The notes under the pieces are model-generated. The model ran no database searches. It was not told where the DNA came from and worked only from the letters and a program-made list of their open reading frames with translations. From an uncultured Lachnospiraceae bacterium (GTDB lineage Bacteria; Bacillota; Clostridia; Lachnospirales; Lachnospiraceae): DNA of 64,000 bases. Positions 3,902 through 49,757 of the stretch are shown piece by piece (within the stretch, counting starts at the first letter, position 1; the number at the start of each line of letters is the position of its first letter). The stretch spans positions 186,001 to 250,000 of the forward strand of contig CADAHQ010000001.1 in the NCBI GenBank assembly GCA_902787715.1. Reading direction: 5' to 3'. The translations under genes and the position numbers were made by a program.

Positions 3902-4199
3902 TAAAAAAGCGCTGTCGATTTTAGGGCTTGCGCAGAAAGCCCGCGCTGTTGCCTCCGGTAACTTCCAGGTGGAGGAAGCCGTGCGAAGCGGCGCTGCCAA
4001 GCTCGTGATCATCGCCACGGACGCTTCGGAAAATGCGAAGCGTGATATTTCAAACATTACCTTTCACTACGGGGTGCCGGTTTACGAGTTCGGAGACCGC
4101 GGCACACTCGGACATGCCATCGGTAAGCAGGAGCGCGTGACGGCAGCCATCCTTTCGGAAGGATTGGCCGCGTCCTTTGCAAAAGCGCTCGAAGAATGA
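3894..4199 (+). CDS. ylxQ: L7Ae-family RNA-binding protein YlxQ
   Basis: A 101-residue protein of the ribosomal L7Ae/L30e/S12e/Gadd45 family, which binds kink-turn RNA. Visible features are LGLAQKARAVASGNFQVEEAVRSG near the start (residues about 8-31, shown here in part of the family pattern), LVIIATDASENAKRD, and a C-terminal VPVYEFGDRGTLGHAIGK. ATG 3894 overlaps the end of rnpM. The precise target in the cell is not established, though operon position suggests a role in ribosome or RNase P biology. Confidence 0.9.
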   Translation: MNDKKALSILGLAQKARAVASGNFQVEEAVRSGAAKLVIIATDASENAKRDISNITFHYGVPVYEFGDRGTLGHAIGKQERVTAAILSEGLAASFAKALEE

Positions 4200-4247: not shown

Positions 4248-7200
4248 ATGGCAAATATCAAACTCGGTGATTTGTGCAAAGAAATCGATGCGTCCTACAA
4301 GGAGATGATGACGTATCTGCGTGAGCACGGATGTGACGTGAAGAGCGCAGGCAGCGTTGTCGACGACGAGGATGCGGAGGTTAAGATTGCCATCACACTC
4401 TACGGCAAGCGGAAACGCAAGCCCGTGGAGAAGAAGGAGGACGATAAGCGTTCGCACGCCCGTTTTGACGACAAGGGAAACCGCGTCGTGAAGAAGGACG
4501 GCGTGATCTACAGTGTCGACAAGGGCGGCAATTACACGGTTTACAACGGTCCTCTCTATGACCAGAACCACAACCGCCTTGAGCCGAAGCGTACGATTTA
4601 CGATGCGGACAAGAAGCCTCTCCTTCGCAAGGGGAACGAGTTTTACAAGAAGAACGACAACGGCGAGACCGTGCTCTACGAGGGACCGATTTTCTCGGAG
4701 GACGGCAGACGTTTAAAGCGCCCGGGTTCCGCACAGGAGAAGCCGGAGGCAGCAGCTCCGCAGAAGGCTCCCGCAAAGAAGGAAGTCGAGGCGGAGAAGC
4801 CTGCAGAGATCAAGGAGCCCGAGACGGTTAAGGCGGTACAGCCTGAGGCAAATGCAACCGAGAAGGCCCCGGAGAAGCCTGCTGAGGCTCCGAAGGAAGA
4901 AAAGCCTGCGACAACGATTACAGAGCCGCAGATTACCAAGGCCGCACCGCGTCCCGTGGAGCGTCCTGTAGTTCGTGAGAACATTAACGACCGCAAGCCC
5001 AGAGAGGGTGCACCGGCAGGAGACCGCAGAAGCGGTGAGGGAAGATCCAACGCTAGCGTGGATCGTTCCGGCAATTCCTCCTACCGCGCACCGCGTGACG
5101 GCTCCGGAAGCGGCTACAACCGCGGACCCCGCACCGGCACGGCGCAGGGTCAGGGCCAGGGTCAGGGCGGCTTCAACCGTAACAGAGACGGCGGTGCAAG
5201 ACCTTCCTACAACCGTGACGGCCAGGGACAGGGCTTCCGTCGCGACGGTCAGGGCCAGGGCCAGGGTCAGGGCGGTTTCCGCAGACCCGGCGCAGGTCAG
5301 GGCCAGGGCGGCATGGGCCGTGCAGGCGGCGGATTCCCGCAGGGATTTGACAAGGATAAGGACAGCAGCGAGCGTCGTACCTTTACCCGCAGAAACGACA
5401 ACAGAAGCAGCGCCGGAAACTCGATCAAGGCGGATTTTGCGAGTGAAATCAACCGCGAACAGCGCGCTGCCGCATACAGCAACCGCGACCGTGACAAGAA
5501 CCGCAACAACCGGGATTTCGACGGTGACGGCAAGAAGGGCGGACGCAAGAATGCGACGCCGAAGAAGGATGTAAACCGCAAGGGCGCATTTATCATGCCC
5601 AAGGTAGAGCCGAAGAAGGAAGAAGATCCGAACGAGATCAAGAACATCACGATCCCCGAGGTCATCACCATCAAAGAGCTTGCTGACAAGATGAAGCAGA
5701 ACGCCTCTGCCATCATCAAGAAGCTCTTCCTCTCCGGAAAGCTCTACAACATCAACTCCGAAATCTCCTTTGAGGAGGCGGAGAATATTGCAATTGAATA
5801 CAACTACATCGTGGAGAAGGAACAGGTTGTCGACATGGTGGAAGAGTTGACCAAGGATACGGAAGATCCCGAGGAAAGCCTTGTGAGCCGTCCTCCGGTT
5901 GTCTGCGTCATGGGTCACGTTGACCACGGTAAGACTTCCATCCTCGACGCCATCCGTTCCGCACACGTTGCGGCCAAGGAAGCCGGCGGTATCACGCAGC
6001 ACATCGGAGCTTACATGGTTGAGAAGAACGGCAGACAGATCACGTTCCTCGATACCCCGGGCCACGAGGCATTTACCGCAATGCGTCTCCGCGGCGCCAT
6101 GGCTACCGATATCGCAGTGCTTGTCGTTGCTGCCGATGACGGTGTCATGCCGCAGACCATTGAGGCTATCAACCATGCGAAGGCAGCCGGTGTTGCCATC
6201 GTTGTGGCAATCAACAAGATGGATAAGGAAGGTGCCAACCCCGACCGCGTTCTCACGGAGCTCTCTGAGCAGGGCCTTGTGTCCGAGGAGTGGGGCGGCG
6301 ATATCGTTACCTGCCGCGTTTCCGCGAAGAAGGGCGACGGTATTGAGAACCTTCTTGAGATGATTCTTCTGACGGCGGACGTTTTGGAGCTTCGTTCGAA
6401 CCCGAACCGCCGCGCAAGAGGTCTTGTCATCGAGGCGAAGCTGGACAAGGGCCGCGGTCCCGTTGCCACCGTTCTGGTTCAGAAGGGTACGCTGCATGTG
6501 GGTGAGACCGTTGCCATCGGTGCATCCTTCGGTAAAATCCGCGCCATGATCAACGACAAGGGTCAGAAGGTAACGGAAGCTACGCCTTCCACGCCTGTGG
6601 AGATTCTCGGCTTGAACAGCGTTCCGAACGCCGGTGACGTCATGATCGCCACGGAGACCAACGAAGAGGCGAAGAACATTTCCGACGCTTATGTTGCACA
6701 GAGCAAGGAAAAGCTCATTGCAGAGACAAAGCAGAAGCTCTCTCTGGAGAGCCTGCATGATGCTGTTGCTGCCGGCGAGATGAAGGATCTCAACATCATC
6801 GTCAAAGCCGATGTGGCCGGTTCCGTGGAGGCTGTGAAGCAGTCGCTTCTCAAGCTTTCCAACGATGAGATTGCCGTGCATTGCATCCACGGCGGTGTCG
6901 GTAACATCAACGAGTCCGACGTGGTTTTGGCAAGTGCATCCAACGCCATCATCATCGGTTTCAACGTAAAGCCCGACAACACGGCCAAGGATACCGCCGA
7001 GCGCGAGAAGGTGGACGTACGTCTGTACTCCGTCATCTACAACGCAATCGACGACATCGAGGCTGCCATGAAGGGTATGCTGGATCCGGTATACGAGGAA
7101 GTTGTCATCGGTCATGCGGAGATTCGCCAGATCTTCAAGGCCAGCGGCCTCGGAAGCATCGCCGGTTCCTACATTCTCGACGGTAAGGCACAGAGAGGCT

Positions 7201-7391
7201 GCAAGGCCCGCATCACCAGAGACGGTGAGCAGATTTTCGACGGCAATCTTGCATCCTTAAAGCGTATGAAGGACGATGCCAAAGAAGTCGCAGCAGGATT
7301 CGAATGCGGTATCCTCTTCGAAAAATTCAATGACATCGCAGAGGGCGACCAGGTTGAACTGTACATTATGCAGCAGGTTGCCAGAAGTTAA
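4248..7391 (+). CDS. infB: Translation initiation factor IF-2 with a very long low-complexity N-terminus
   Basis: IF-2 is the GTPase that brings initiator fMet-tRNA to the 30S subunit. The GTP-binding domain starts near residue 550 with GHVDHGKT (residues 556-563), then DTPGHEAF and NKMDKEG, and the EF-Tu-like, central and C-terminal fMet-tRNA-binding domains follow to residue 1047. A short IF2-N domain is at the very start ([12 protein letters not shown]). Between them lie about 400 residues of disordered sequence: two similar motifs ([13 protein letters not shown] near residue 100 and [13 protein letters not shown] near 142), a Lys/Glu/Ala/Pro region, and an Arg/Gly/Gln/Asn-rich tract with GQGQGQ runs (about 260-380). 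A second IF2-N-like segment ([22 protein letters not shown]) sits near residue 470. The total length is well above the usual 700-900. GGAGG precedes the start. Confidence 0.97.
5144..5312 (+). repeat. In-frame GGYCAG hexamer repeats encoding Gly-Gln runs in IF-2
   Basis: Clusters of the hexamer GGCCAG/GGTCAG occur at about 5146-5170, 5220-5232, 5248-5274 and 5297-5310. They encode GQGQGQG blocks separated by Arg/Asn/Tyr-rich spacers. The alternating third base (C or T) suggests expansion followed by silent drift, or selection on the protein. Copy number may vary between strains. Confidence 0.8.
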
Positions 7392-9766: not shown

Positions 9767-10695
9767 ACAGTTGTGAATACAAACAGGGCATGCGATTGGA
9801 AGGGCCGGTGTGTCTTACCATCGGCAAATTCGACGGCCTTCATAAAGGTCACCGGCAGTTGCTTTCCGCGATGCAGAAAACAGGGCTTCCCGTGACCATG
9901 CTTTCCGTGTCGGTCCCCGGTGCTTCGGAACTTCTGTCACAGGAGGAGAGTGCGATTCTTGCAGAGGCCTGCGGCGTTACCACCTTTGTCCGTCTGCCGC
10001 TTACAAACAAGCAAAAGCAGATGTCCGCCGCGTCATTTTTCCAGGAGATTTGCCTGGATGCATGTCACGCGGGCGTAATCGTGGTCGGGGAGAATTTCCG
10101 GTTCGGAAGAGACCGGGAAGGGGATGTTTTCCTGCTTCGGACCCTTTGCGAGATGTCGGGAGTCGAATGTATCATTTGCCCGATGCTTGCGGAGGACGGA
10201 GAGGATGTCTCCAGCACACGACTTCGGAATCTCCTGCAGGAGGGTGACATTCCGACGCTCAACCGGATGCTTGGATATGCCTTCCCCGTGCACGGGATCG
10301 TGTGCCGCGGGAAGCGCATCGGACACACCTTGTCGTTCCCGACGGTGAACCTGTGTCCGCCTGCGGAAAAGCTTCTTCCGCCATTCGGTGTGTACCGCAC
10401 AAGGATCCGGATCCGGGAGCGCGCCTACGACGCAGTTACCAACATCGGAACCAACCCCACGGTGCAGGACGGTCTTACCCACGAAATCACGGTGGAGACC
10501 CATGTGCCGGGGCTTACGGCGGAAACCTACGGCGAGGAAGCGACGGTTTCCTTCTATGAGTTTCTTCGCCCGCAACGGCAGTTTAATTCCCTTGAGGATC
10601 TTAAGAATCAGCTCCTCTTGGACACCAAAGCGGCACTAAAAGGGGCAACGGGTGGCACAAACACCGAAATCTTTCCTGATTTTTTCGAAAAATGA
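9763..10695 (+). CDS. ribF: Bifunctional riboflavin kinase / FAD synthetase RibF
   Basis: RibF makes FMN from riboflavin and then FAD. The N-terminal FAD synthetase domain has TIGKFDGLHKGHRQLL (about residues 19-34), a (H/N)xGH nucleotidyltransferase motif; the usual FDGVHxGH is slightly varied. SSTRLRNLLQEGD is near residue 150. The C-terminal flavokinase domain starts near residue 170 (GIVCRGKRIGHTLSFPTVNL) and includes the PTVQDG region. I place the start at TTG 9763, which overlaps truB's stop as TTGA and has GGAG at 9751-9754; an ATG 27 bases later (residue 10) has no ribosome site. Total 310 residues, normal for the family. Confidence 0.92.
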   Translation: MNSCEYKQGMRLEGPVCLTIGKFDGLHKGHRQLLSAMQKTGLPVTMLSVSVPGASELLSQEESAILAEACGVTTFVRLPLTNKQKQMSAASFFQEICLDACHAGVIVVGENFRFGRDREGDVFLLRTLCEMSGVECIICPMLAEDGEDVSSTRLRNLLQEGDIPTLNRMLGYAFPVHGIVCRGKRIGHTLSFPTVNLCPPAEKLLPPFGVYRTRIRIRERAYDAVTNIGTNPTVQDGLTHEITVETHVPGLTAETYGEEATVSFYEFLRPQRQFNSLEDLKNQLLLDTKAALKGATGGTNTEIFPDFFEK

Positions 10696-10708
10696 TGCAA
10701 AATGCCTG

Positions 10709-10737
10709 TTTACATATGGCGGGCAGTGTGCTATAGT
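10709..10737 (+). promoter_or_regulatory. Promoter of rpsO
   Basis: TTTACA (10709-10714), a 17-base spacer and TATAGT (10732-10737). A 12-bp palindrome TTTTTCGAAAAA (10681-10692) lies 16 bases upstream and overlaps the end of ribF. Confidence 0.8.
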
Positions 10738-10744
10738 ATCAAAG

Positions 10745-10803
10745 TCAACCGGATCTCGGTCTGCGGAGTCTCCGACCCTGGCTTAGATCCCGGCGATAAT
10801 TAC
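10745..10803 (+). promoter_or_regulatory. Structured rpsO 5' leader
   Basis: GGATCT near 10750 can pair with AGATCC near 10790, enclosing further pairing (CGGAG with CTCCG). Leaders of rpsO are commonly bound by S15 itself to repress translation in many bacteria. The structure is read by eye; regulation is inferred from that precedent. Confidence 0.5.
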
Positions 10804-10826
10804 AAGTTTTAACGGAGGTTAAGCGT

Positions 10827-11093
10827 ATGATCAGCAAGGAAAAGAAGAGCGCGATCATTGCCGAGTACGGCAAGAACCCGCAGGACACCGGTTCCGCAGA
10901 GGTTCAGATTGCAATCCTGTCCGCAAGAATCGAGGAGCTCACCGAGCACCTTAAGAAGAACAAGCAGGACAATCATTCCCGCCGCGGCCTTTACATGATG
11001 GTAGGTCGCAGAAGAGGTCTTCTGGATTATCTCAAGTCCAAGGACATCAACGCATATCGTGCATTGATCGAGAAGCTCGGTATTCGTAAATAA
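10827..11093 (+). CDS. rpsO: 30S ribosomal protein S15
   Basis: An 88-residue protein, the normal length of S15, a primary binder of the central domain of 16S rRNA. The conserved [16 protein letters not shown] (about residues 20-35), [18 protein letters not shown] and [13 protein letters not shown]-type motif (here [13 protein letters not shown]) are all present. GGAGG lies 8 bases before ATG 10827. It is a single-gene transcription unit with its own promoter and terminator. Confidence 0.98.
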
Positions 11094-11102
11094 CTATCGC
11101 GA

Positions 11103-13337: not shown

Positions 13338-14642
13338 ATGACCTACGAACAAGTTGTGGAACGATTGACTAAGACGGAATTCTTTTCGGCTTTCGCCGGC
13401 CTGTACCGGATGCGCGCGATGCTTCGGTACTTTGACAATCCGCAGGATGCGATTCCCTGCGTGCATGTGGCCGGAACGAACGGGAAGGGTTCCGTTTGTT
13501 CTATGCTGGCATCGATTCTGATGCAGTCCGGATACCGCGTCGGACTTTTCACCTCGCCGTATCTTTTGGACATCCGCGAGCGCATCTGCGTAAACGGAGA
13601 GTGGATTTCCGAGGATGCCATGGCCCGTATCGGCACGAAGGTTTTCGACTACGTCGCCAAATCCTACGCTCCGGCGAACCAGTTTGAGCTTCTTACGGTG
13701 ATTGCCGAGCTTTATTTCCGGGAGCAGAAGTGCGACATCGTGATTCTGGAGACCGGTCTCGGCGGAACCTTCGACCCGACCAATGCGGTTTCCGCGCCAA
13801 TCTGCTCGGTGATTACGAATATCGGCCTCGACCACTGCGCAGTGCTGGGAGATACCATCGCCAAAATCGCCGCTGCAAAAGCCGGCATCATCAAGCCTGG
13901 CCGCGACGTCTGTGTTTACCCCGTGACGCGGGAGGCGGAGGAAGTCATCACCGCTTATGCGTTAAATGCCGCCGCCCCGATTCACATGACCGAGCGGGAT
14001 GCCGTTACCGAGTTGCCCGCCGTAACGGGGATGGAGCATTTTTCGTACAAGGGCACGGAAGTTTTGCTTCCGTTGCGCGGCAAGCACCAGCAGTACAATG
14101 CCGCCACGGTGCTGGAAGCCATCCGCGTGATCAACGAAAACGGCTTCTACGTAAGCGATGAGGATATTCAAAACGGCCTGCGCACCGTAACCTGGCCCGC
14201 GCGGCTTGAGGTTATCAATAAAAAACCCCTCGTCTATCTCGACGGCGGTCACAACCCGCAGTGCCTTGCGGCGGTTTCCGAGTTTTTCCGCTCGGAGGAG
14301 TTCGCCGGCAAGAAACTTACGGTCATCTGCAGCATGGTCCGGGACAAGGATGTCCGCGGGATGCTCTCGATTCTGTCGGGGCTTTCCGACCGGCTGTATT
14401 TCTACCGCTTTGAGCACAAGCGCGCCCTCACAAACGAGGAGATTATCACCCTTTGCAAAGACTTTTCCATGACGCGCATCACGGACCTCACCCAGGCGAT
14501 CGACACATTACTTTCCGACGCGAAGAGCAACGAGGTGTTCCTGATCACCGGTTCCCTGTATCTGGTTTCGGAAGTCCGCGAGGCAATGCGCGCCTACCGG
14601 GAACGAAAGAGCCTTACCGCGAGTAAAGAGGTATCCGAATGA
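13338..14642 (+). CDS. folC: Folylpolyglutamate synthase / dihydrofolate synthase (second copy)
   Basis: A 434-residue paralogue of the preceding gene. It has HVAGTNGKGSVCSML (about residues 40-54), LFTSPYLLDIRERICVNG (the folate-binding loop), ILETGLGGTFDPTNAV, GLDHCAVLGDTIAKIAAAKAGIIK and LDGGHNPQCLAAV. This copy matches the canonical FolC loop SPHL..ERI more closely than copy one, so it may be the main FolC while copy one has a narrower job. ATG 13338 follows GGAGG with five bases between; an in-frame TTG at 13326 is too close to the ribosome site. Its stop overlaps the next start (ATGA). Confidence 0.93.
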   Translation: MTYEQVVERLTKTEFFSAFAGLYRMRAMLRYFDNPQDAIPCVHVAGTNGKGSVCSMLASILMQSGYRVGLFTSPYLLDIRERICVNGEWISEDAMARIGTKVFDYVAKSYAPANQFELLTVIAELYFREQKCDIVILETGLGGTFDPTNAVSAPICSVITNIGLDHCAVLGDTIAKIAAAKAGIIKPGRDVCVYPVTREAEEVITAYALNAAAPIHMTERDAVTELPAVTGMEHFSYKGTEVLLPLRGKHQQYNAATVLEAIRVINENGFYVSDEDIQNGLRTVTWPARLEVINKKPLVYLDGGHNPQCLAAVSEFFRSEEFAGKKLTVICSMVRDKDVRGMLSILSGLSDRLYFYRFEHKRALTNEEIITLCKDFSMTRITDLTQAIDTLLSDAKSNEVFLITGSLYLVSEVREAMRAYRERKSLTASKEVSE

Positions 14643-16423
14643 ACGAAGAGAACAAAGAAATCGTCGAGACCGAAGAGTGCCGGGAGATTGCCAGCCAGAA
14701 GAAGTTAAATAAGATTCTGCTCCTTGCATTTATCGGCATGACCTTAATCGCTGCCGGTCTGATTATCGCCCTTGCGGCCGCAAACAAAGAGAAGAACAAA
14801 ACGCCCGGGACGACCCCCACCGTGACGGAAACTGCGGCAAATGCAACCGAAACTCCGGCGCTGACGCAAACCGCTACGCCTTCCGCGACTCCGGCTCCTA
14901 CGGATTCGCCGGAGGTTTCCCCGACGGAAGCCGCAACAGCGACGCCTACGGTAACGCCGGAAGTCTCACCTTCGCCCACCGAAGCCGTGACTCCCACGGA
15001 TGTTCCGACACCGACGGCAGCTGCCACGGCAACGCCTACGCAGGCTCCGACAAACACGCCGACGCCCACGGTTTTTGTGAAGGAATCCGGCACGCCGGTT
15101 GCCAACCACGGTCAGCTTCAGGTCAAGGGAACGCAGATTGTGGATAAAAACGGCAAGGTCTATCAGCTGAAGGGTGTCAGCACCCACGGACTCCAGTGGT
15201 TCCCGCAGTTTGTTTGCCTTGAGACGTTCCGTTGCATCCGCGACGAGTGGGGTGCCAACGCCGTGCGCCTTGCGATGTACACCGACGAAAACGGCTACTG
15301 CGCCGGCGGCGACAAGGCAAAGCTCAAAGCTTTGGTGAAAAACGGCGTCAATTATGCGACGCAACTTGGGCTTTACGTCATTATCGACTGGCATATTCTC
15401 CACGATTATGACCCGAACCAGAACAAGGACGAAGCGAAGAAGTTCTTTGAGGAGATGGCGAAGGAATTCTGCGACTACAACAATGTATTTTACGAGATTT
15501 GCAATGAGCCCAACGGCGGCGTCGGCTGGTCCTCGGTGAAGAGCTATGCCGAGGAAGTGATTCCGATTATCCGCAGATACGACAAGGACGCCATCATCAT
15601 CGTGGGAACCCCCACCTGGTCCCAGGATGTGGATATCGCAGCGAAAGACCCGATCAAGGGATATAACAACATCATGTATGCGCTGCATTTCTACGCGGGA
15701 ACCCACAAAGACAGCCTTCGGAGCAAGATGAAGACCGCCATTGAAGCAGGACTTCCGGTGTTTGTTTCCGAGTACGGCATCTGCGACGCCTCCGGAAACG
15801 GCGCCTGCAACGAGCCCGAGGCGAACAAGTGGGTTGCCATGATGGACACCTACGGCGTGAGCTACATGATTTGGAACCTCGCCAACAAAAACGAGTCCTC
15901 GTCCCTGATCCGCGAGAGCTGCAAAAAGCTCAGCGGCTTCACCGAGGCGGACCTGAACCAGGAAGGCCTTTGGCTTATCAAGATGCTCGGAGGAAAGCTC
16001 CCTCCCATGACGGAGAAGGAGAAGGAAGACCTGATTAACAAAGCCGGCGGAAGCGGCGGCGGCGATGTGGCTGCGCCGGATCCGGTGATCGGCAAGGGCT
16101 CGGGAAGCGGGCTGACCGTGGATTTCGCGTCTGTCAACACCTGGAACGAAACCGACTACAAATGCTACCAGTTCGGCGTGACCATCGCCAACACCAAGGG
16201 GAGCAGTGCCCGCAACTGGAAGGTCGTCATCACCTTTAATGCCGATGTCAAAACCGACAATTTCTGGTGCTGCGACGCCAAATGCTCCGGCAAAACCCTG
16301 ACCTTAACCCCTGCCAACTTCAACAATGTGATCGGAGCAAACCAGACCACCTCGGACATCGGTCTGATTCTGCAGTCGAAATCCCTGCTGAAGATAAGTT
16401 CCGTGACCATCACCTGTGAATAA
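14639..16423 (+). CDS. Membrane-anchored GH5 endoglucanase with C-terminal carbohydrate-binding module
   Basis: A 594-residue protein of four parts. A cytoplasmic tail and an uncleaved-looking signal anchor (hydrophobic at about residues 26-48) would place the rest outside the cell. Residues about 55-145 are a Thr/Pro/Ala-rich linker. Residues about 155-455 are a GH5 catalytic domain resembling subfamily 2 cellulases, with ANAVRLAMY, YVIIDWHIL, the acid/base in YEICNEPNGG (E290) and the nucleophile in FVSEYGI (E378). After a Gly/Ser linker, residues about 495-594 look like a CBM2-type module (NWKVVITF, TLTLTPANFNNVIGANQT). It likely cuts beta-1,4-glucan at the cell surface. It overlaps folC by four bases, so it is cotranscribed with an unrelated gene. 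Confidence 0.88.
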   Translation: MNEENKEIVETEECREIASQKKLNKILLLAFIGMTLIAAGLIIALAAANKEKNKTPGTTPTVTETAANATETPALTQTATPSATPAPTDSPEVSPTEAATATPTVTPEVSPSPTEAVTPTDVPTPTAAATATPTQAPTNTPTPTVFVKESGTPVANHGQLQVKGTQIVDKNGKVYQLKGVSTHGLQWFPQFVCLETFRCIRDEWGANAVRLAMYTDENGYCAGGDKAKLKALVKNGVNYATQLGLYVIIDWHILHDYDPNQNKDEAKKFFEEMAKEFCDYNNVFYEICNEPNGGVGWSSVKSYAEEVIPIIRRYDKDAIIIVGTPTWSQDVDIAAKDPIKGYNNIMYALHFYAGTHKDSLRSKMKTAIEAGLPVFVSEYGICDASGNGACNEPEANKWVAMMDTYGVSYMIWNLANKNESSSLIRESCKKLSGFTEADLNQEGLWLIKMLGGKLPPMTEKEKEDLINKAGGSGGGDVAAPDPVIGKGSGSGLTVDFASVNTWNETDYKCYQFGVTIANTKGSSARNWKVVITFNADVKTDNFWCCDAKCSGKTLTLTPANFNNVIGANQTTSDIGLILQSKSLLKISSVTITCE

Positions 16424-24203: not shown

Positions 24204-25055
24204 GTGCGTTTTTTCGACATCTTCAAAGTGATTTTGTTCGGCATCGTCGAAGGACTCACCGAGTGGATTCCCGTAAGTAACACCGGACATCTTGCGGTGC
24301 TTTCGCATTACCTAAGTTTCGACGCCTACGAGGCAAATGCCGTCTTTCGCGAGATGCTTGTTGCAGGGGCCGCCTTCGGAGCAGCCTGCGCCGCTGCACT
24401 TTTGTTCCTGCCTGGCAACACCCTGATGGTGCAACGGATTCAAAAGCAGCGAAGTATATCCAGGGAACGCACCGCATTCTGGGCCGTGGTGACCGCCTCG
24501 TTTCTGCCGACGGCGCTCATCGGGTTATTTTTCTCGGATGAATTTGCCGGGTTTGCCTTCGCGCCGAATTCGGTCCGCAACTTAAAGATGGTTGTGGTTG
24601 CCATGATTACGGGCGGATTGTTTTACCTGGTTTCGGAGTTTCGTATCAGGCGTGGCGCCATCCGATACGAAAAGACGGAAGAGATTCCGCCCCGGCTGAT
24701 TTTCATCGCAGGACTGACGCAGATGATTTCGTTTATCCCCGGAAGCAGCCGCTTCGGTGTGTTGGTGTTAACGCTTGCCCTGTTCGGCGTAAGCCGCGCA
24801 GCCTGTGTTTCCACAGCGGTGTTTATCAGTATTCCTTCGCTGTTTGTGTCATCCCTTCTTCCGACGCTGTTTTATCTTTTCAAGCTGAACGGCATCGAGG
24901 TTTCCTTTGTGATGACGGCAGCGTTGGTTTCCTTCTTTACTTCGTTTTTCACGCTCCGTGAGATTATCCGACGCCTCTCGAAGGCCGATCTCACGAAGCT
25001 CGGCCGGTACCGGATCGGGTTCGGCGTTTTGTTGTTACTGTTTTGCATTCTTTGA
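24204..25055 (+). CDS. uppP: Undecaprenyl-diphosphatase UppP (BacA family), divergent
   Basis: A 283-residue polytopic membrane protein. UppP recycles undecaprenyl pyrophosphate to the monophosphate carrier used in wall synthesis. The first motif is clear ([18 protein letters not shown], residues about 12-29) and retains the two glutamates, but the usual SSTGH serine pair is SNTGH. In the second motif, PGTSRSGAT is PGSSRFGVL, which keeps the arginine but loses the following serine and the threonine. It may therefore be altered in rate or substrate. GTG 24204 is the start, with AAGGAG at 24191-24196. It lies between the GH95 gene (17 bases) and ftsK (17 bases). Confidence 0.82.
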
Positions 25056-25072
25056 TTAAGGAGGTCGGTTTC

Positions 25073-28000
25073 ATGGCTTCAAAGCAGACAAAAGGCACTG
25101 TGGAATTTCCGAAGAAAAGCCGCAAGGCGGATGCTTCGGTGAAGAAATCCCAGACTGCATCCGACACGAAAGAAAAATCGCAAACCAGCGAGACGGACGA
25201 ATTTATCGAAAAGCGTCGCGCGGCCATGGCCAAGAGCAAGGAAGTCCGCGACGAAGTTGTCATCGTACTGACGGCTCTTTTGGTTATTCTTCTGTACTTA
25301 AGCATCTTCAACGCCTGCGGAAAGGTGGGAGAGTGGATCAGCATCGTTTTGTTCGGTCTTCTCGGCGGAATTCTTCCGTACATCTTCCCGGTGGCTTTGT
25401 TCGGCATGGTCTGGTATGTGCGCCATAACTCCGACGACCCGCTGGCGGTCCGCAAGACCACGGTCTTCGGCATCTCGCAGGTGTTCCTCGCTGCTTTGGT
25501 GCATATCATCAGCAACGTGGCTGCTGACGAAAAATTCCTCAGCTCCTTCAAGGTCGGCTACGCCGAAAAGCGCGGCGGCGGATTCTTAGGCGCCTGTGTC
25601 GCGGAGCCTTTGTACGGGCTCTTCGGAAAGCCTGCCTCCATCATCATTCTGGTTGCACTTTTGCTTGTTTGCATCATCGTCATCATCGGCAAGGGTCTCT
25701 TCCGCCTCATCAAGAAGTACATCGAGGAGAAGCGCGAAGAGAGCCGCGAAGCCTACGAGGAAGAACCTGCACCGGGTACTGATACAAAGACCATGACCCT
25801 TGAGCAGATTCAGGAAGCGAACCGGAAGCGCCGCGTCACCATGGTGGATGTGGACGCGCCGGTTGCGCCGGTGGATTTAAGCTTCTACGGTGTCGAACAG
25901 GCACCCGAGCCGCCGAAGAAAAAGCCCGGCTTCTTCGACCGCATCCGCAAGAAGACCCCGGAGCCGTCGCCCACGCCCGTGTATATGGCTGTATTTTCCG
26001 AGGACGGATCGAAGATCGGCTACATCGACCCGAAGGCCGCGAAGGTCATCGAGCAGGGTATCCCGGGCGCTCCAACGCCGGCCCAGAACAATACGCCTGC
26101 GGCAAATGCTTCCTCGCAATTCGCGCCGGATTCCATCGGCCGCAACTCGAAGGTTTCCGCCAGCGGCCATCCGTTCTACCAGATTGAACTCGACAACAAA
26201 TTCCGCGAGACGAACACCTCCGGCGGAAGCATATTGAAAGACAACTACGAGAGCACCGGAACCCCCGGTTCCTCCGTATCCGAAAAGGAAGCCGCAAGAC
26301 GCGCCGCGGTGGAGCGCAGGCTCAACGCAGGCAATGTTTCCCAGATACCGATTCAGGGCTTGTCGGACAACACCGATGCGACTGCAGGACCTTCCACAAG
26401 CGCCCAGACGCAAACGCCGGCTGCTTCCGCGAACACTTCGGCCAATGCATCCTACAATCCTTACGATGCCGTGGAGCCTGACGAGGCTGTGGCACCTTCC
26501 CGCGAGGAGATGCAAAGCGGCGGGCTTCGTCTGGTAAAGGGAGGGGAAAGCCATTCCGCAAGACACGAGCAAGTCTCGACGCAGGGTGCAAGACCGACAA
26601 ACTCCCAGACGAGTTCCGCGAGTGCAGGTTCCGAAGAGAAAGAGGCAGGAGAGGACGCACCGTTAGCGCAGATTGTTGCACCGGTTCGCGAGTACCGCTT
26701 CCCGCCCATTGACCTTTTGAAGCGCCCCTCCGCAAAGAGCGCCGGCATGTCCGGTGACCAGCTCAAAGCGACGGCAGCCAAGCTTCAAAACACTTTGCAA
26801 AGCTTCGGTGTCAACGTCACCGTCACCAACATAAGCTGCGGCCCCAGCGTTACCCGCTACGAGCTCACTCCCGAGCAGGGCGTTAAGGTAAGCCGCATCA
26901 CCAGCCTTGAAAATGATATCAAATTAAACCTCGCTGCAGAGGATATCCGCATCGAGGCGCCGATCCCCGGCAAGGCCGCCGTGGGTATCGAAGTGCCCAA
27001 CACGGAAGCCTCCGGCGTTATGCTTCGGACCCTTATTGAGTCTCCGGAGTTTAAGAACAACAAGGGCAAGATTACATTTGCAGTAGGTAAAGACATCGGA
27101 GGCAACATCGTGCTTTCCGATATCGCAAAGATGCCGCACCTGTTGATTGCCGGCGCCACCGGTTCCGGCAAATCGGTCTGCATTAACACGATGATCATCA
27201 GCCTTCTCTACAAGTATAAGCCGGAAGACCTCCGTCTTATCATGGTTGACCCGAAGGTGGTGGAGCTGAGTGTTTACAACGGTATTCCGCACCTGCTGAT
27301 TCCGGTTGTCACCGATCCGAGAAAAGCCAGCAACGCCCTGAACTGGGCGGTTGCCGAGATGACCCACCGGTACGAGCTGTTCGCACAGCAGGGTGTACGA
27401 AACCTTGAAGGCTTCAACGAGAAGATTGAGGCGAGCCTTGTGCCTTTGTTCGATGACAAGAACAACGTGCTTCGCAAGATGCCGCAGATTGTCATCATCG
27501 TGGATGAGCTTGCCGACCTCATGATGGTTGCACCCGGCGAGGTGGAGGATGCCATCTGCCGTCTGGCCCAGCTTGCCCGGGCCGCAGGCATTCACCTGAT
27601 TATCGCGACCCAGCGTCCTTCCGTGGATGTCATCACCGGTTTGATTAAGGCAAACATCCCGTCGAGAATTGCATTTGCCGTCTCCTCGGGTATCGACTCG
27701 CGAACCATCCTCGATCAGGTTGGCGCGGAGAAGCTCCTCGGCAAGGGTGACATGCTGTTCTTCCCGCAGGGCATTCCGAAGCCGGTCCGCCTGCAGGGAC
27801 CTTACGTCTCCGACGAGGAGATTGCAGGCATCGTCGAGTATCTCACGCGGAACAATTCCGTCAACTACGACGCGAAGGCTTCCGAGGACATCGCGAACAA
27901 CGATGTGGCTACCGTGAGCGAGCAGATGAAGGGCGGAGACAGCGGCCCCGGCGACGGGCGCGATGAATTCTTCGCACAGGCCGGACGTTTCATCATTGAA

Positions 28001-28186
28001 AAGGACAAAGCCTCCATCGGTATGTTGCAGCGCGTTTACAAGATCGGTTTCAACCGCGCGGCACGCATCATGGACCAGCTCTCCGAGGCCGGCGTCGTCG
28101 GTCCCGAGGAGGGAACCAAGCCCCGCAAGATTCTGATGAGCGCCGCGGAGTTTGAAGCCTTCTTAGCAGAGCAGGGCAGACAATGA
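25073..28186 (+). CDS. ftsK: DNA translocase FtsK/SpoIIIE
   Basis: This motor pumps chromosome arms through the division or sporulation septum. The 1037-residue protein has an N-terminal membrane part (about residues 55-230, roughly four helices), a long low-complexity linker rich in Ser, Thr, Ala and Pro (about 235-540), and the RecA-type motor with alpha and beta domains. Walker A is GATGSGKS (694-701), Walker B is [13 protein letters not shown], and the C-terminal gamma winged helix (about 960-1037) includes [24 protein letters not shown], which reads KOPS/SRS-type sites. ATG 25073 follows AAGGAGG. If the adjacent terminus inference holds, this gene and xerS are within 25 kb of a dif candidate, though that may be chance. 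Confidence 0.95.
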
Positions 28187-48185: not shown

Positions 48186-48560
48186 ATGGGTGACATCAGA
48201 CTGCATGAAGGCGAATTGAACGTGATGGAATTGCTTTGGTCCAACCAGAGTCTTTCCGCGAAAGATATTGCCAAGATTATCAAAGATTACATCGGCTGGG
48301 AGAAAAATACGACGTACACCGTTATCAAGCGTTTGATTGATAAAGGCGCAATCGTTCGTGAAGAACCCGGTTTCATTTGTAAGGCTGTAATCACAAAGGC
48401 AGAAATTCAGCGGATCGAATCCAAAGCATTGTTCGACAAATTGTTCGGCGGCGACATCACGAATTTCTTCAAAGAATATCTTGCAAATGAAAAGCTCGGT
48501 GCCGAGGAAATCCGCGAGCTTCGAAAGATTGTCGATACACAATATCGAAAACTGTTTTAA
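48186..48560 (+). CDS. BlaI/MecI/CopY-family transcriptional repressor, orphan
   Basis: A 124-residue winged-helix protein of the penicillinase-repressor family. Residues about 7-72 form the DNA-binding domain (LNVMELLWSNQSLSAKDIAK, NTTYTVIKRLIDKGAI, shown in part), where the recognition helix is NTTYTVIKRL. The C-terminal half is the dimerisation helix pair. In known systems BlaI/MecI partners with a BlaR1/MecR1 sensor protease that cuts the repressor at an N-F bond; I see none next to this gene. A TTGACA promoter upstream is overlapped by inverted repeats, so it is probably self-repressed. Its targets could include the penicillin-binding or wall genes nearby, which is speculation. Confidence 0.85.
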   Translation: MGDIRLHEGELNVMELLWSNQSLSAKDIAKIIKDYIGWEKNTTYTVIKRLIDKGAIVREEPGFICKAVITKAEIQRIESKALFDKLFGGDITNFFKEYLANEKLGAEEIRELRKIVDTQYRKLF

Positions 48561-48640: not shown

Positions 48641-48668
48641 ATTTCGCTAAACGCAGGTTTTACGAAAT
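48641..48668 (+). other. dif: Candidate dif site (XerS recombination site)
   Basis: A 28-bp imperfect palindrome with 11-6-11 layout: left arm ATTTCGCTAAA (48641-48651), centre CGCAGG (48652-48657) and right arm TTTTACGAAAT (48658-48668). The arms match as inverted repeats at 9 of 11 positions, with the outer six bases perfect. It lies 36 bases before the start of a XerS-like recombinase gene. In Lactococcus and Streptococcus the dif(SL) site likewise lies beside xerS. The local sequence is AT-rich. Function is inferred from layout and context only. Confidence 0.6.
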
Positions 48669-48704
48669 ATTGTCATGCAAAAAGAGGCGAAAACGAGGTG
48701 TTTT

Positions 48705-49757
48705 ATGGCAAATGACTCTTATCACAAGCAAATGACCATCAAAAACGAATTAAAGCTTCGCGACATCCGTAAGGACCTTCCTTCGTTCTGTGACCGTTTT
48801 TTCCGCGGCATTGAACCAACAACTGCGTCACGTACACGAATTGCTTACGCAACCGATCTTCGTCAATTCTTTTTGTACGCGCAGAAAAACATTGCTGCAT
48901 TTGCCGGCGTTAATCTGCTCACTGCAAACATCACAATTCTTGACGAAATCACTTGCTACGATATCGAGAATTATCTCGACTATCTGAAGGTTTACACCAA
49001 CGAGGAAGGAATTCAGGTAACCAACGGGGAAAACGGTTTAAAGCGAAAACTTTCCGCCGTTCGTGCATTGTACCGTTATTTCTATTTTCATCACGAAGTT
49101 CAGACCAATCCAGCAGCTCAGGTTGCGGTTCCGAAGATTCACGAAAAAGCCATCGTCCGTCTTGACGAAAACGAAACCGCCGAGCTTTTGGACACCGTTG
49201 AATATGGCATGGGCGGTTCCGATCAACAACAACGGTTTCACGAAAAAAACAAGGACCGCGATCTGGCTATGGTCACATTATTGCTTGGCACCGGCATCCG
49301 AATCTCCGAATGCATCGGATTAAACGTTGAGGACGTGGATTTCGACAACGACCGCATTAAAGTGACGCGAAAAGGCGGTAATGAGGCCTATGTATATTTC
49401 GGCGATGAGGTTCGCGAAGCCCTGGAGACCTATTATACCAAGCGCTCCTCTCTCGCTGCGCTTCCCGGAAGCGAGAACGCGTTATTTTTATCGAACCGAA
49501 AGAGCCGTATGACCGTCCGGGCCGCTGAATTCTTAGTCAAAAAATACGCCGGCGCCGCAGTTTCCCTTAAGAAAATTACGCCGCACAAGCTTCGAAGCAC
49601 CTACGGCACGCAGTTATACAAGGAAACCGGCGATATTTACCTTGTAGCGGATGTTTTAGGCCACAAGGACGTCAACACAACGCGCCGCCATTATGCCGCA
49701 ATTGAGGAGGAACGCCGCCGCTCCGCCAAGGACAAGGTCCATCTTCGCAAGGACTGA
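48705..49757 (+). CDS. xerS: Tyrosine recombinase, XerS-like (chromosome dimer resolution)
   Basis: A 350-residue tyrosine recombinase. The N-terminal SAM-like domain (about residues 20-150) is followed by the catalytic domain with R199 (GTGIRISECIGL), H294 and R297 (HKLRSTYG), H320 (LGHKDVNTT) and the nucleophile Y330 (RRHYAAI). Length and the KNKDRDLAMVTLLLGTGIR block resemble the streptococcal single recombinase XerS (about 356 residues) more than XerC/XerD (about 295-305). It would resolve chromosome dimers at the dif site just upstream, activated or aided by FtsK. ATG 48705 follows GAGG; ATG 48675 upstream lacks a ribosome site. An integrase of a mobile element is the alternative, but no phage or ICE genes are nearby. 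Confidence 0.88.
   Translation: MANDSYHKQMTIKNELKLRDIRKDLPSFCDRFFRGIEPTTASRTRIAYATDLRQFFLYAQKNIAAFAGVNLLTANITILDEITCYDIENYLDYLKVYTNEEGIQVTNGENGLKRKLSAVRALYRYFYFHHEVQTNPAAQVAVPKIHEKAIVRLDENETAELLDTVEYGMGGSDQQQRFHEKNKDRDLAMVTLLLGTGIRISECIGLNVEDVDFDNDRIKVTRKGGNEAYVYFGDEVREALETYYTKRSSLAALPGSENALFLSNRKSRMTVRAAEFLVKKYAGAAVSLKKITPHKLRSTYGTQLYKETGDIYLVADVLGHKDVNTTRRHYAAIEEERRRSAKDKVHLRKD

Follow-up and report, generated by a model that had tools for sequence, protein, structure and literature searches.

A probable chromosomal dif site beside the gene for a single XerS-like recombinase in an uncultured Lachnospiraceae bacterium

Lachnospiraceae are among the commonest bacteria of gut and rumen. Does the short near-palindrome in front of a tyrosine recombinase gene in one such genome serve as the chromosomal dif site, and which kind of Xer system would it belong to? 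We found no published account of chromosome dimer resolution in Lachnospiraceae, and no literature that pairs XerS, or a dif site plus a Xer recombinase, with this family, in a search whose scope left aside most subscription papers and all bioRxiv preprints. The available portion of a 2017 review of Xer recombination covers XerCD, XerS, XerH and XerA and contains no word beginning with "Clostridi" or "Lachno" (PMC5357621), and Kono 2011, in the part at hand, treats organisms with XerCD, "Lachno" and "Eubacterium" being absent from that text (PMC3025954).

In this study, we examined a 64,000-nucleotide stretch of an uncultured Lachnospiraceae genome (the window) together with related genomes, named loci, plasmids and viral contigs. 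The 28-mer at positions 48641 to 48668 is, judging from these comparisons, very probably the dif site of its own genome, and we are highly confident in the fuller reading that it is the chromosomal dif and that the adjacent gene encodes the one Xer recombinase acting on it.

The 28-bp site and its conservation

The site lies on the forward strand and reads ATTTCGCTAAACGCAGGTTTTACGAAAT. Its 11-6-11 layout, ATTTCGCTAAA-CGCAGG-TTTTACGAAAT, with symmetry at 9 of the 11 arm positions, confirms the layout and near-symmetric arms described in the initial annotation. Alignment with the sites of relatives delimits a left arm, ATTTCGCTAAA (48641 to 48651), as a TTCGC-type half-site and a right arm, TTTTACGAAAT (48658 to 48668), as a TTCGT-type half-site on the other strand. 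The centre CGCAGG (48652 to 48657) falls on the variable middle of the aligned sites, where six variable bases are flanked by invariant AAA and TTT, and by analogy with other Xer sites it would be the region of strand exchange. The proportions are those of a dif site, i.e., about 28 bp with two dyad arms of about 11 bp around a centre of 6 to 8 bp. The arm pattern has one match in the whole draft genome (2.48 Mb, 54 contigs, 97.5% complete), the single copy that had been expected, and the gap to the likely start codon of the recombinase gene (48705) is 36 bp.

Palindrome strength was dropped as evidence for a dif site, as the window holds 13 places with at least 9/11 symmetry in the 11-6-11 layout compared to a mean of 7.2 in 20 base shuffles. 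Since equally strong palindromes are common in the window, the case for the site rests on comparison with relatives. A protein search over 61 genomes, including the own genome, gave some match in 58. Within the genus, the site is located upstream of the orthologous gene in all 18 loci fetched, with 0 to 6 differences, and the site pattern (at most one mismatch) is present in 19 of 22 genomes. The three others (G011, G020 and G021) are drafts of 79 to 86% completeness in which the orthologous gene is absent or weakly matched; every genus genome with the orthologous gene keeps the site (19/19, own included). A single copy is found in 18 of these 19 genomes and two copies in G007. In an alignment of 19 genus sequences, the majority base holds on average 0.92 of a column within the site compared to 0.55 and 0.51 in the 60-bp flanks, and it is this conservation, much lower in the flanks, that lifts the site above chance. 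The second copy in G007 (contig C19, L318, ~4092 to 4113) carries one change and lies between open reading frames (ORFs), about 0.7 kb from a toxin-antitoxin-like pair named by inspection.

We also examined 80 named loci, mostly from Lachnospiraceae metagenome-assembled genomes (MAGs). In 35 of them, a site deviating from the arm pattern at no more than one base was found, and each time the nearest such site precedes the gene match, at a distance of 33 to 4,238 bp; in the other 45, no such site was found in the fetched DNA, which for some includes little upstream sequence. A scan for symmetric sites revealed diverged forms in 15 of these 45 loci. In seven of them, GCG...CGC replaces TCG...CGA, both arms being altered together, and eight carry a TATACGACAAA... 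form, which is also seen in a ninth locus (L163) among those matched by the pattern. Conservation beside the gene, proposed as a check in the initial annotation, came out in favor of the site, being seen in all 18 genus loci and 35 of the 80 named loci.

Two further observations come from these loci. An identical palindrome, TATCAATATACATCCCTATGTATTGATA, begins ~250 to 390 bp upstream of the xer match in 15 of them, many named Mediterraneibacter (L139, L141, L143, L149, L151, L153, L157, L161, L166, L171, L175, L179, L180, L182 and L183). Also, one MAG contig titled Alphaproteobacteria (L126) combines a 59% identical recombinase with a Lachnospiraceae-type site, and its title is probably a binning or naming error.

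On a wider scale, a looser site pattern matched 240 of the 392 genomes searched in the order, mostly once, and was absent from 152, compared to about 81 of 392 for the reversed control. Among genomes of the class, a stricter pattern matched 58 of 393 (11 of 23 inside the order and 47 of 370 outside), and its reversed control 9 of 393. Two other clostridial families (f58 and f77) carry TTCGCTAAA-N6-TTTAGCGAA or similar, in a few genomes near the middle of a long contig (G526 and G753); with terminus position examined in members of the order only, these are possibly sites of the same dif type outside the order. Three contigs (L215, L216 and L218, i.e., G373:C10, G373:C26 and G392:C21) harbor extra sites with different centres and no xer gene in the fetched parts and are perhaps secondary replicons.

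We also analyzed whether the two arms vary together, using 79 distinct sites, i.e., 72 distinct collected ones and seven more from the genus, named-locus and diverged-form searches. Arm covariation was 0.197 compared to 0.071 in shuffles, none of 300 being as high, with most of the sites having been found by a pattern that fixes 14 arm bases. For the four arm pairs that this pattern leaves free, covariation was 0.496 compared to 0.191, and for the eight distinct genus sites found by position alone it was 0.175 compared to 0.064, again with none of 300 shuffles as high in either case; all these shuffles ignore the kinship of the sites. An earlier set of 43 sites (36 of the 72 distinct ones and seven others) had given 0.218 compared to 0.074 (none of 500 shuffles as high), with slid registers at 0.044 or less, although two of five measures were no better than in shuffles (pairs with changes on both sides, 4 versus 4.5; further pair types, 8 versus 8.0). 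Because that set was hand-picked, the count was redone on all 79 sites. Arm position 7 is asymmetric, with pairing in only 30 of the 79 distinct sites.

The recombinase and its relation to known Xer systems

The gene downstream of the site (48705 to 49757, forward strand) encodes a XerS-like tyrosine recombinase of 350 amino acids; an upstream ATG at 48675 would give 360 amino acids and is the less likely start. The catalytic set is complete (R199, K223, H294, R297, H320 and Y330), each residue being kept in 68 to 71 of 71 aligned rows, and the protein is accordingly predicted to be an active tyrosine recombinase of the R-K-H-R-H/W-Y type. The upstream neighbour is a BlaI/CopY-type repressor-like gene (48186 to 48560, forward strand; BlaI and CopY models, below their cut-offs), for which no mechanistic part is claimed.

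The initial annotation had called the gene XerS-like, as part of a XerS-type one-recombinase system, and the locus a mirror of the dif(SL)-xerS arrangement of streptococci. The best NCBIfam model is indeed XerS, yet the score of 190.2 bits is below the NCBI curated cut-off of 267, whereas two Lactobacillales plasmid XerS proteins, to which the window protein is ~30% identical, reach 463.2 and 456.7 bits. None of 41 genus, family and order genomes, own included, passed this cut-off. In a tree of 71 rows, in which XerS was represented by the Lactobacillales plasmid pair, this pair and a XerD group were placed apart from the Lachnospirales proteins, the fork excluding XerS being supported at 94/95. 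The genus proteins formed one clade. Placement in the tree is approximate because some long plasmid branches fall inside the Lachnospirales group.

As in the XerS/difSL system of streptococci and lactococci, there is one tyrosine recombinase of ~350 amino acids, with the site beside its gene and at the terminus, and in this respect the proposed parallel stands. In contrast, the site here measures 28 bp with a 6-bp centre, while difSL is described as 31 bp with an 11-bp centre in the section of the review available (PMC5357621), and gene and site can be unlinked. Adjacency was seen throughout the genus loci. By the curated cut-off, the recombinase is XerS-like but not XerS. A search upstream of plasmid xerS genes (L231 to L234) for a site of the streptococcal type gave no clear common palindrome.

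The XerCD/dif system of most bacteria likewise has a 28-bp 11-6-11 site at the terminus and an FtsK with a gamma domain. The window encodes such a DNA translocase at 25043 to 28186 (forward strand), about 20 kb from the site, with the gamma domain at 27959 to 28138 (PF09397, 95.7 bits). However, instead of two Xer recombinases of ~300 amino acids, the two tyrosine recombinases of the 97.5% complete draft genome are the 350-aa Xer protein and a 430-aa integrase, no XerC or XerD being found there, and the arms are unlike those of the Bacillus subtilis, Escherichia coli and Frankia dif sites. On the 386-kb terminus contig, the best matches to these three arm types miss 6 of 22 bases, no better than in one shuffled copy. 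A competing XerCD pair or another dif, which the initial annotation had named as evidence against its proposal, thus did not turn up in that genome or, for known dif types, on that contig.

Three genus members of 97% completeness (G010, G014 and G019) have the XerS-like gene as their sole PF00589 match. G015 harbors a 314-aa Xer-like gene, the only such candidate in the genus, and further PF00589 genes of 282 and 277 amino acids occur in G006 and G015. In the order outside the genus, a Xer-like gene of ~300 amino acids is frequent; two that were scanned passed the XerD cut-off and adjoin SpoIIM- and NUDIX-like genes (names by inspection). Additional XerS-like genes were observed in two genomes. 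On one contig (L207, G059:C23; 10828 and 14014 to 15151), a second, distant gene encodes a protein of 34% identity. This gene has a site of its own, located at its start or just before it, and a further dif-like site lies 4.3 kb away; in the tree, the protein is closest to a Brevibacillus plasmid recombinase. On another (L211, G024), genes at 6207 to 7250 (45% identical to that of the window) and 10025 to 11101 (56%) are 2.8 kb apart, both downstream of a site at 2612.

Among other single-recombinase systems, XerH/difH of Helicobacter and Campylobacter is similar in having one recombinase of 354 to 362 amino acids with dif near its gene, as far as the review is available (PMC5357621). In sequence, XerH is a weak match to the window protein, at 37 bits (5jjv) compared to 89 for E. 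coli XerD, and also ranks below XerA. The closest published parallel, an order-wide system with a single recombinase that was discovered by way of its site, is XerL of Legionellales, in which, according to the accessible part of its description, gene and dif may be unlinked, the arms are long and symmetric, and the site serves plasmids as well as an integrative element (PMC9765430). XerL belongs to another phylum and was set beside the present system by its published description only. The pairing of a dif site with one dedicated XerS-like recombinase would be a known kind of system in a new form, a view that is well supported by the sequence comparisons.

Replication terminus, plasmids and phages

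On the own contig C1 (386,272 bp, joined from 20 stretches), GC skew is positive over the first 200 kb, stays near zero across a broad flat zone (200 to 240 kb) and then turns negative; its cumulative maximum falls at 199,765, with the site 35 kb away, at 234,641. The 3.403-Mb genome G341, a single contig, has the site at 1.7216 Mb and the flip in the sign of the skew within 5 kb of it, at ~1.717 Mb. In G057, G412, G149, G268, G292 and G004, the last of these a genus member, skew is positive over the 20 kb preceding the site and negative over the 20 kb following it (6/6), so that a sign change at the site was seen in all seven relatives sampled; one stretch 41 kb before the site in G268 has the wrong sign. 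The position at the replication terminus expected of a dif site was thus found in 7/7 relatives, while the skew check suggested by the initial annotation came out less sharply on the own contig, with the site in the flat zone 35 kb from the maximum.

Site and gene proved to be separable. The site-gene adjacency noted at the outset holds for 18/18 genus loci but not in some families of the order, where the best-matching recombinase gene is 1.13 Mb (G149), 0.99 Mb (G268), 0.50 Mb (G292) or 0.25 Mb (G341) from the site; the distance is 25 kb in G412 and 0.9 kb in G057. The skew switch is still at the site in all six genomes. Four further TTCGTAAAA-N6-TTTTACGAA palindromes were observed away from the terminus of the one-contig genome G412 (C1, 263571, 271761, 1104354 and 3384776). 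We also looked for FtsK-orienting octamers, but those with the strongest skew in the 150 kb to each side (CGGAGGAG and related ones) seem to reflect an overall strand bias, and none proved usable.

The site also occurs on mobile replicons. An 8.55-kb contig (G097:C140, L206), whose ends overlap by 123 bp and thus form a circle of about 8.43 kb, is a plasmid that encodes two Rep3 initiators and a serine resolvase and has a single dif-like site. For the Butyrivibrio megaplasmids, one exact match was obtained in the 186 kb of pCY186 and none in pCY360; this is weak evidence, since the reversed control also matched at one mismatch.

In viral contigs, a 19-base site pattern was found in at least 120 stretches compared to 1 for the reversed pattern. 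Eighty of these stretches were analyzed (L323 to L402), and in 74 of them the site lies outside ORFs of at least 90 amino acids. Together with four hits of the genus pattern they form 43 nucleotide clusters; these four, which fall within an ORF of a single phage group, probably have no relation to the site. Genes resembling those of filamentous phages are joined to the site in L328 (1994), L374 (5186), L377 (8591) and L372 (6778), and in the first three of these a 56% identical xer gene, presumably that of the host, is on the other side of the site, the same order of phage genes, site and host-type xer as in dif-integrated filamentous phages. Matches to the Zot family and to replication initiators were scanned in L328 and L374, the Zot match of L374 being below the Pfam cut-off, and L377 was judged by near-identical ORFs. 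In other viral pieces, the genes beside the site form families of 29, 10 and 8 neighbours, and portal and large-terminase genes are near the site in L324 and L325. The link to packaging genes is tentative because, with one member per family scanned, only the second (10 neighbours) gave a match, a weak one to a terminase small subunit. Xer-like genes occur in 5 of 84 viral pieces, many of which are partial contigs. The viral sites are likely dif mimics.

Two GenBank records named "Bacteriophage sp." (MT835478, L229, and MT835555, L230) encode recombinases of 55 to 56% identity, but as they are unannotated and marked UNVERIFIED, a phage-borne origin was dropped. Their chromosomal-type arrangement of site plus xer suggests that they are probably bacterial DNA or prophage flanks.

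Alternative readings, mechanism and significance

A tyrosine recombinase adjoining a short inverted repeat could also be the integrase of a mobile element next to its attachment site. We give this reading practically no credence, as the site is present in all 19 genus genomes with the gene, in single copy in 18, the genus proteins form one clade, and the genes flanking it in the window resemble ordinary chromosomal ones; vertical conservation, together with the location at the terminus, largely refutes this reading. It is also very improbable that the palindrome is an operator at which a regulator or the recombinase itself controls xer transcription. With 36 bp between it and the likely start codon, the site does fall within the promoter or leader of the gene, and in several genus relatives a promoter-like TTGATT...TATAAT was recognized by eye directly after it. 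An operator of xer, however, would move with xer, so the sites of G149, G268, G292 and G341, which stay at the skew switch with the gene 0.25 to 1.13 Mb away, argue strongly against a site that is merely such an operator. The plasmid and most of the fetched viral pieces, too, carry the site with no xer gene in the piece. Autoregulation could nevertheless coexist with dif function.

Other readings accept the dif site and assign it another partner or main role. That the XerS-like protein acts with a second Xer protein, as XerC does with XerD, is unlikely, even though many relatives in the order also encode the ~300-aa Xer-like gene, two tested examples of which score above the XerD cut-off, and position 7 consistently differs between the arms. 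The own draft genome yielded no gene of this kind, and the genus offers only the 314-aa candidate of G015, besides the PF00589 genes of 282 and 277 amino acids in G006 and G015, yet all 19 genus genomes with the orthologue keep the site. A slight asymmetry is also reported for other single-recombinase sites in the part of the review consulted (PMC5357621). Finally, the main role of the site might be the unloading of SMC complexes or the marking of the terminus, and dimer resolution would then come second; in B. subtilis, SMC is unloaded at dif by XerD (cited in the available text of PMC13342612). We regard this as distinctly unlikely, since filamentous-phage genes joined to the site suggest integration, which needs strand exchange.

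The favored reading thus remains a chromosomal dif served by the one adjacent-gene recombinase, which the initial annotation had proposed as a candidate and which is supported by single copy, conservation in the genus and a location at or near the skew switch. Its workings are inferred, including binding, cleavage, dimer resolution, control by FtsK and action of a single recombinase. Homologous recombination would join sister chromosomes into a dimer, whose two dif sites would meet at the terminus near division, probably under the control of FtsK, encoded 20 kb away with its gamma domain. Two recombinase molecules would bind the two near-symmetric arms of each site, and strand exchange in the 6-bp centre would yield two monomers. 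The slight difference between the arms (TTCGC on one side, mostly TTCGT on the other) may set which strand is cut first.

With moderate confidence, we extend this reading to an order-wide single-recombinase dif/Xer system, distinct from XerCD, XerS, XerH, XerA and XerL, that may serve Lachnospirales and perhaps further clostridial families. Its dif would be widely exploited in gut and rumen: plasmids carry the site, filamentous phages appear to integrate beside the host xer gene, and many tailed phages seem to have a dif mimic close to packaging genes and may thereby use the host recombinase to integrate or to resolve multimers of the phage genome. A defined site together with one recombinase would make dimer resolution, terminus organisation and the evolution from two recombinases to a single one directly testable in this order. 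The site is also a likely integration target for phages and plasmids that have no integrase, and it may serve as a terminus marker for orienting uncultured genomes.
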